From: Bacillota bacterium
GTDB lineage: Bacteria; Bacillota; Dethiobacteria; DTU022
Direction of reading: 5' to 3'
Length of the DNA stretch: 64,000 nt
Assembly: GCA_033549065.1 (NCBI GenBank)
Contig: JAWSUE010000002.1
Location: 62,001-126,000 of the forward strand
Positions 59,778 through 61,729 of this stretch are shown piece by piece; the first letter of the stretch is position 1, and every line of letters starts with the position of its first letter. The notes beneath the pieces are model-generated. The model had not been told where the DNA came from and searched no databases. It saw nothing but the letters and a program-made list of their open reading frames with translations. A program made the position numbers and the translations under genes.

Positions 59778-60635
59778 ATGCGGGTAGCTGCACTGACGTT
59801 AGCCAGGATCCGAACGAACGATACCGGTTTATATAAAAAAGATCTAAGCAGGCTGCTGGAAAACTCCAGACCGGATCTTGCTGTTCTCCCGGCATTCAGT
59901 TCTCTGGTCCTCGGAGTAGATTCCGGCGCAGTCAAAAACTACGATCAATTCGATCAAACTGTAAAATTTCATATGGCAGATTCAACGGACTGGAACAGAT
60001 ACTTCCTGAATCTTCATTCAGAAATTGCTTCTTCCCTCGGTATTTTCCTTACAGCCGGGACAATATTTGAAAATAAATCAGGTTCTTATTACCATACAGC
60101 CTGCTGCTTTGATCCTGACGGCCGCCTTGTAGCTTCCCAGCAGCAAACCCACCTTACCTTTGCCGAAAAAAAAATAGGACTGAGCAGGGGAGAAGACCTC
60201 CATCTTTTTAATCTGGGTGAACTGAAAGCCGGATTGGTCATCGGCAATGATGCCCGACACCCTGAAATAGGTCGAATCTTCGGCCTGCTCGGAGCAGACA
60301 TACTTCTCTGCAGTGGGGCTCTCCGGGCAGGACCTCACTGCTGGCAGGAAACGGCAGGTATGTGGGCCCAGGTCCAGCAGAATCAGTTCTGGGCTGTTGA
60401 AGCCAACCTGAATGGCCAGATTGCCAATTATCAGTTCGGGGCGGCTCCGGCCGTTCTCGGCCCCTGTGAAATAACTCCCGGCCAGAGCGGTTATCTGGAA
60501 CGCGGATACCCGGACAGCCCGTTGATTACCGCTCGATTAGACCAGTCAAGCCGTCTGCAAATCAAGGCCAATTACCCGCTTCTGGAGCAATTAAATCCTG
60601 AAGCCTATGATAGATTATTAAACCGAAAGGTGTAA
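59778..60635 (+). CDS. Nitrilase-superfamily protein lacking the catalytic triad
   Basis: The 285-residue protein has the nitrilase-superfamily fold pattern but all three catalytic positions are changed. The glutamate position is Ala39 in LPAFSS, the lysine is Gln123 in QQQTHL, and the cysteine is Gly156 in VIGNDARHPE. The rest of the frame is intact and well conserved around these sites, so it looks like a stable pseudoenzyme, not a decaying gene. It sits nine bases before an intact family member and may form a mixed complex with it. A GGAGAG site precedes the ATG. Confidence 0.75.
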   Translation: MRVAALTLARIRTNDTGLYKKDLSRLLENSRPDLAVLPAFSSLVLGVDSGAVKNYDQFDQTVKFHMADSTDWNRYFLNLHSEIASSLGIFLTAGTIFENKSGSYYHTACCFDPDGRLVASQQQTHLTFAEKKIGLSRGEDLHLFNLGELKAGLVIGNDARHPEIGRIFGLLGADILLCSGALRAGPHCWQETAGMWAQVQQNQFWAVEANLNGQIANYQFGAAPAVLGPCEITPGQSGYLERGYPDSPLITARLDQSSRLQIKANYPLLEQLNPEAYDRLLNRKV

Positions 60636-60643
60636 CTTTAACA

Positions 60644-61729
60644 ATGCCCCTTAGCGGATCAAAAGAAAAGCTGTTTCAGCGGTACCTGACCTGGATCTAC
60701 CGTCAATCAAAGATTAACCAGCATCTCGATACGGTGCTTCCGACGGCTAAAGTGATACCGGAAGAAAGAGACCAGAGAAAAATTGGTGCAGCAGCGCTGC
60801 AGATAAAGCTTGAGCTTTACGATACTCCCTTTGATTACATCGATGAAATGCACCGCCGGGTAAGGGAGGCTGCTCAGGCAGGAGCCCGGCTTGTTGCCTT
60901 TCCTGAATATAATAATATTTCGATTTTTGGCATGCTGCCGGGAATTGAGAAGATGGAGGAAGCTTACGGGGCAAAGAACGGGGATCGTCTATCCGGAAAG
61001 AAAACTCCGGCAGCTAGCGATGAAGATATTAGTCTAAGTGATCTTTTTCGTTATACCAGCCCTGTTGTTGAATCCCTGGTCGCCAGTGTCTATTCTAGAT
61101 TTGCTTCAGCCTATGGCCTTTATATCATGGCCGGAAGCTATATTCACACGGACCGGGACGGATCACTGGTTAACCGCGCTTATCTCTTTGCTCCCGATGG
61201 GCTACTCCTGGGAACACAGGATAAGGTTCACTTGTTGCCGCTGGAGGAGCAGTGGATCGAAAAAAGGGGTAAATCCTTCTCTGTATTTCAAACCACACTG
61301 GGCAGGCTGGCCATGCCTGTGTGCATGGATGCTACCTACTATGAAAGCTTTCGCATACTGGAGCTGCAGGACACCGATATTGCCTTTCTGCCGATTGCCA
61401 ATCCTGAAGAATATAATTACTGGTTAGCCCTGCGCGGTATCTGGCCCCGTGTGCAGGAATGCCCTCTTTATGGTGTAAAAAGTTCCCTGGTGGGATCTAT
61501 TGCCGGCCTGACTTACACAGGCCGGGCCGGAATATACGCTCCCCTGGAGCTTACTGCCGACGGCAGCGGAATACTTGCTGAAGTCGAACCTCACGACCGG
61601 GAAGCGATGGCGTTTGCCTATCTGGACCTTGAAGCCCTTCACGAACTTCGCCGGAACCATCCCTGGCGTGACCAAAACCTACCCCTTTACCGCAAATATT
61701 TCCCAGCAATTTACAAGAATCGCCTCTAA
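60644..61729 (+). CDS. Carbon-nitrogen hydrolase (nitrilase superfamily)
   Basis: The 361-residue protein keeps the triad: Glu88 in FPEYNN, Lys194 in QDKVHL and Cys227 in PVCMDATYYE, plus a second glutamate at 201-202. It has an N-terminal extension of about 45 residues before the core. It would hydrolyse an amide or nitrile; the substrate is unknown. It is paired with the inactive-looking homologue upstream and followed by the osmolyte genes. Confidence 0.82.
   Translation: MPLSGSKEKLFQRYLTWIYRQSKINQHLDTVLPTAKVIPEERDQRKIGAAALQIKLELYDTPFDYIDEMHRRVREAAQAGARLVAFPEYNNISIFGMLPGIEKMEEAYGAKNGDRLSGKKTPAASDEDISLSDLFRYTSPVVESLVASVYSRFASAYGLYIMAGSYIHTDRDGSLVNRAYLFAPDGLLLGTQDKVHLLPLEEQWIEKRGKSFSVFQTTLGRLAMPVCMDATYYESFRILELQDTDIAFLPIANPEEYNYWLALRGIWPRVQECPLYGVKSSLVGSIAGLTYTGRAGIYAPLELTADGSGILAEVEPHDREAMAFAYLDLEALHELRRNHPWRDQNLPLYRKYFPAIYKNRL

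Follow-up and report, generated by a model that had tools for sequence, protein, structure and literature searches.

The nitrilase superfamily is typified by a Glu-Lys-Cys triad, and its fold is exemplified by mouse Nit2 (2w1v), Pyrococcus PH0642 (1j31) and N-carbamoylputrescine amidase. In plant heterocomplexes the active site can be controlled by partner subunits. Neither of the two NIT4 paralogues of grasses is known to lack the triad. The heteromeric NIT4 nitrilases consist of two paralogues that have to associate for activity (Jenrich 2007, as cited in PMC6214922). Active/dead paralogue pairs in general and heteromeric nitrilases in plants are already known; no precedent for a near-obligate pair in bacteria, one subunit of which has the nitrilase fold but consistently lacks the triad, was found in literature searches that covered few subscription journals. 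The pair described here was met in a window of 64,000 nucleotides from a Bacillota bacterium (contig JAWSUE010000002.1, positions 62,001 to 126,000), in which two tandem genes, hereafter U and D, code for proteins that share the superfamily fold. The features of the locus, in window coordinates, are as follows:

59778..60635, + strand: U, triad-less nitrilase-fold protein of 285 aa, putative pseudoenzyme subunit (ORF, CN_hydrolase match, AF2)
59892..59894, + strand: U Ala39, opposite the catalytic Glu (alignment)
60144..60146, + strand: U Gln123, opposite the catalytic Lys (alignment)
60243..60245, + strand: U Gly156, opposite the nucleophilic Cys (alignment)
60363..60401, + strand: U-specific block W196 xx V199 Q200 Q201 N202 Q203 .... 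E208 (column conservation, modelled secondary structure)
60644..61729, + strand: D, predicted nitrilase-superfamily hydrolase of 361 aa with intact Glu-Lys-Cys, putative catalytic subunit (ORF, CN_hydrolase match)
60644..60778, + strand: D N-terminal extension, ~45 residues, basic/aromatic (alignment)
60905..60907, + strand: D Glu88, triad (alignment)
61223..61225, + strand: D Lys194, triad (alignment)
61322..61324, + strand: D Cys227, triad nucleophile (alignment)

Triad columns and conservation of U

Both ORFs are intact and lie on the same strand with 8 bp between them, and the two proteins share 28% identity (E=1e-21). The Pfam CN_hydrolase model (PF00795; curated cut-off 23.2) was matched by U with 51.1 bits and by D with 62.1 bits. 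Neither protein reached the cut-off of an NCBIfam equivalog, D scoring 45 bits against the model for N-carbamoylputrescine amidase (AguB, cut-off 410) and 23 bits against that for deaminated glutathione amidase (cut-off 500). The earlier note had claimed that D keeps Glu88-Lys194-Cys227 where U has Ala39, Gln123 and Gly156, and these residues were found to occupy the same columns in a multiple alignment of homologues. The same note regarded U as otherwise intact, in agreement with its full ORF, its CN_hydrolase score above the cut-off and its complete fold in the AF2 model (pLDDT 94.7, pTM 0.92). The closest solved structure to this model was mouse Nit2 2w1v (Z 29.6, rmsd 2.5, 256 residues), and structural neighbours were also sought with Foldseek.

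Homologues were collected first by a class-wide search, then from named genomes and from 398 genomes sampled from the phylum; a contig scan with a single-protein query gave no matches, and a scan with an alignment query recovered the pair. A few of the loci represent one genome present in two collections, and the counts of distinct sequences allow for such duplicates. All three triad residues were absent in 78 of the 91 distinct U sequences, one was kept in the other 13 and two were kept in none. Glu occupied the Glu column in 3 of the 91 and Cys the Cys column in 9; of the 90 rows that could be read in the Lys column, 89 held Gln. The 83 distinct D sequences carried Glu, Lys and Cys at every readable triad position, and the second superfamily Glu (Glu201 of D) was present in all D homologues and also in most U. 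Triad loss in U is a conserved trait, attributable neither to chance nor to decay. The near-universality of Gln suggests that the change from Lys was probably a shared ancestral loss, after which Glu and Cys were lost in most lineages. In a quick tree U and D formed sister clades (SH-aLRT 96 and 98), with long outgroup branches that make the root unsure.

A triad shifted elsewhere in U was also looked for, and the conserved columns revealed no relocated Glu-Lys-Cys set and no conserved Lys whatever. Nor did the homologues show decay, pairwise dN/dS values of U in close pairs being 0.05–0.29 (Nei-Gojobori; approximate where dS > 1); U is under purifying selection. The residues near-invariant in U and different from D were Q123, Q201, N202, E208 and mostly C230. 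The U-specific block corresponds in the AF2 model to a helix (188–202) and a strand (205–210).

Pairing of U with D

At 83 loci U was found directly 5' of D on the same strand, the two genes being separated by a median of 1 bp, and in the class-wide search D directly followed U in most U-bearing genomes. Where the contig ran on for more than 500 bases past U, D was missing in a single case (L069, genome G082), in spite of the 8 kb of contig that follow U there. The pair is far broader than one genome: dozens of genomes carry it across numerous Bacillota families, with Thermovorax, Fervidicola, Thermosediminibacter and Petroclostridium among the carriers, many of which are anaerobic Firmicutes-type bacteria. 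It was met once in Actinomycetota, in Candidatus Hakubella.

Natural fusions of U and D in one frame occur in four genomes of family f56 (732–833 aa) and, separately, in one genome of family f64 (814 aa). The D-type N-terminal extension is also present between the halves of the fused proteins, where it is helical in the model (helices 349–393). The 732-aa fusion was modelled by AF2 from an alignment of 5 fused rows and 35 rows spanning the U half only; an alignment that combined all three kinds of row (fused, U and D) put U rows on the D half and was left out of folding. The predicted pTM was 0.84, with 71 residues below pLDDT 50 and a disordered linker. For two equal domains without a confident relative position a pTM near 0.5 is expected, so the value obtained predicts that the U and D halves pack together confidently. 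The earlier note had suggested a complex between the active and inactive homologues, and this suggestion is well supported by the adjacency, the fusions, the packing of the fused model and the selection on U, which together point strongly to a single heteromer of U and D.

The reading preferred here, to which a probability of roughly 0.7 is given, is that U-D is an obligate heteromeric amidase of the nitrilase superfamily in which U is a pseudoenzyme subunit, with a GH125-like glycosidase as co-partner in most carriers. An ancient duplication would have given rise to D and U. D would have retained Glu-Lys-Cys and would cleave a C-N (amide-type) bond via Cys227, whereas in U the Lys would have been replaced by Gln at an early stage, with Glu and Cys mostly lost afterwards, leaving a non-catalytic partner. 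The contact of U with D would most likely use the dimer interface of the superfamily, and U may complete or stabilise the active site of D, or sense a ligand, in support or regulation of D.

The best-placed alternative, although an unlikely one, is that U has acquired a new active site or become a dedicated ligand binder, with Q121, Q123, Q200, Q201, N202, E208 and often C230-E231 binding or transforming a small molecule independently of D. The near-invariant polar residues that set U apart from D, together with C230 (90% conserved in U and not conserved in D), indicate a constraint beyond what a dimerisation surface alone would require; however, the near-constant pairing of U with D and their fusion argue for a joint function, and no nitrilase-fold enzyme is known to us that dispenses with the Cys nucleophile. 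If U does bind a ligand, this would still fit the complex model. It is less probable still, and rather doubtful, that the two paralogues, transcribed together, form separate homodimers in one pathway with no heterocomplex. Both are full nitrilase folds, and operon adjacency by itself does not prove contact between them, but this arrangement is at odds with the U-D fusions in two families and with the way the two halves pack confidently within a single chain in the model, and would leave a triad-less homodimer with no evident job.

Neighbouring genes and the putative substrate

With known duplicates removed, 57 loci remained, of which 35 had a gene for a GH125-like protein near U-D and 22 had one for an MFS_2/GPH symporter. 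In the 398-genome sample the GH125-like gene was found in 52 of 79 U-D genomes and in 7 of 319 others (odds ratio 86, Fisher p 3e-37, uncorrected for phylogeny), where U-D genomes were called by E-value thresholds and a few may hold D only. In the source genome, the glycosidase gene lies ~3.4 kb past the end of the window:

G000 C2:129402-131225 (L082:3367-5244), - strand: GH125-like glycosidase

The protein is of ~610 aa and matches GH125 in its C-terminal part only, where it keeps the residues aligned with Asp220 and Glu393 of CpGH125, which we take to be catalytic in that enzyme. No NCBIfam model was found for this ~610-aa family, which is deeply conserved in Bacillota and is also found where the nitrilase pair is missing (e.g., in G281, G305 and G473). 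At L223:5821-9057 (-), a single open frame of 1078 aa spans D and the GH125-like protein and looks like a fusion that arose naturally. As an obligatory partner the glycosidase was ruled out, as many U-D genomes are without it: it was absent in 24 of 26 U-D genomes rechecked at a loose threshold, one of these 24 being the complete Petroclostridium sp. X23 genome. At two loci without the glycosidase (L201 and L203), the pair lies near a lysine-2,3-aminomutase-like radical SAM gene. An LmbE/BshB-like deacetylase was clustered with U-D and the glycosidase at six loci (L149, L159, L199, L214, L225 and L228), hinting at an amino-sugar substrate.

In most carriers, U-D would work with the GH125-like glycosidase, often together with a sugar symporter. 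The presence of these two genes beside the pair leads us to propose that the substrate may be a nitrogen-containing compound released when an imported alpha-glycoside is broken down, a proposal made weak by the many U-D genomes that lack the glycosidase. Literature searches for mannosylglyceramide as a substrate, and for GH125 together with nitrilase, gave nothing. The fullest form of the preferred reading is put forward tentatively, at somewhat less than even odds: U-D would be a widespread and hitherto undescribed heteromeric amidase of anaerobic Bacillota whose conserved pseudo-nitrilase subunit either regulates the active subunit or is needed for it, and which, together with a sugar symporter and a new glycosidase of GH125-like type, serves in the catabolism of a nitrogen-containing alpha-glycoside.

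In the window, asnO and ngg lie 3' of the pair and are followed by GNAT and ATP-grasp genes. The position of the pair next to osmolyte genes, as the earlier note had described it, holds for this genome and for the relative G007, the only other genome in which conservation beside asnO-ngg was found; the functional link that the note implied is unsupported, the recurrent neighbours being the GH125-like glycosidase and the GPH/MFS_2 symporter. It is very improbable that U-D is functionally tied to the NAGGN osmolyte genes (asnO, ngg), for instance as a dipeptide-amide hydrolase: asnO scored 855 bits against the N-acetylglutaminylglutamine amidotransferase model TIGR03104 and adjoins the pair with ngg in these two genomes, but asnO-ngg was not a recurrent neighbour in the other loci mapped, and as a general association it was ruled out. 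The upstream icd/rib-polA-mutM-coaE genes were likewise set aside as functional evidence, these being housekeeping genes whose synteny is shared at family level. Related genomes have coaE and icd side by side, but in the window the two are separated by ~23.6 kb (35138-58752) that look like an inserted catabolic island. This stretch codes for a CoA transferase, a PrpR-like sigma-54 regulator, TctA/TctC transporters and transketolase halves, and holds two creatininase-like genes, one of which matches IolN (3-dehydro-scyllo-inosose hydrolase).

That U is a degenerating, hitch-hiking gene is scarcely credible, since the loss of all three catalytic residues and the one internal in-frame stop (1 TGA) in the matched stretch of the U gene of G007 stand against the purifying selection, the U-specific invariants, the persistence in many Bacillota families and the intact predicted fold, and decay was ruled out by dN/dS and column conservation.

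Comparison with known systems

A conserved triad-less subunit with an active partner would provide a simple bacterial model for heteromeric nitrilase control, and U-D marks a recurrent glycosidase-transporter-amidase cassette. The glycosidase-like neighbour resembles the GH125 alpha-1,6-mannosidases (CpGH125, 2nvp/5m7i) in the two aligned residues and differs from them in its longer N-terminal part. U-D is like the enzyme-pseudoenzyme heterodimers of other folds, in which a dead paralogue is kept beside an active one in a presumed regulatory or structural role. With NIT4, as presented in PMC6214922, it has in common a pair of paralogues, although NIT4 is a plant system and not an ancient active/dead bacterial pair. 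As in the nitrilase superfamily at large, D keeps Glu-Lys-Cys and Glu201 and U aligns along its whole length; unlike the members of that superfamily, U is triad-less as a conserved trait and is held with D in a near-obligate tandem pair that has also given rise to fusions.
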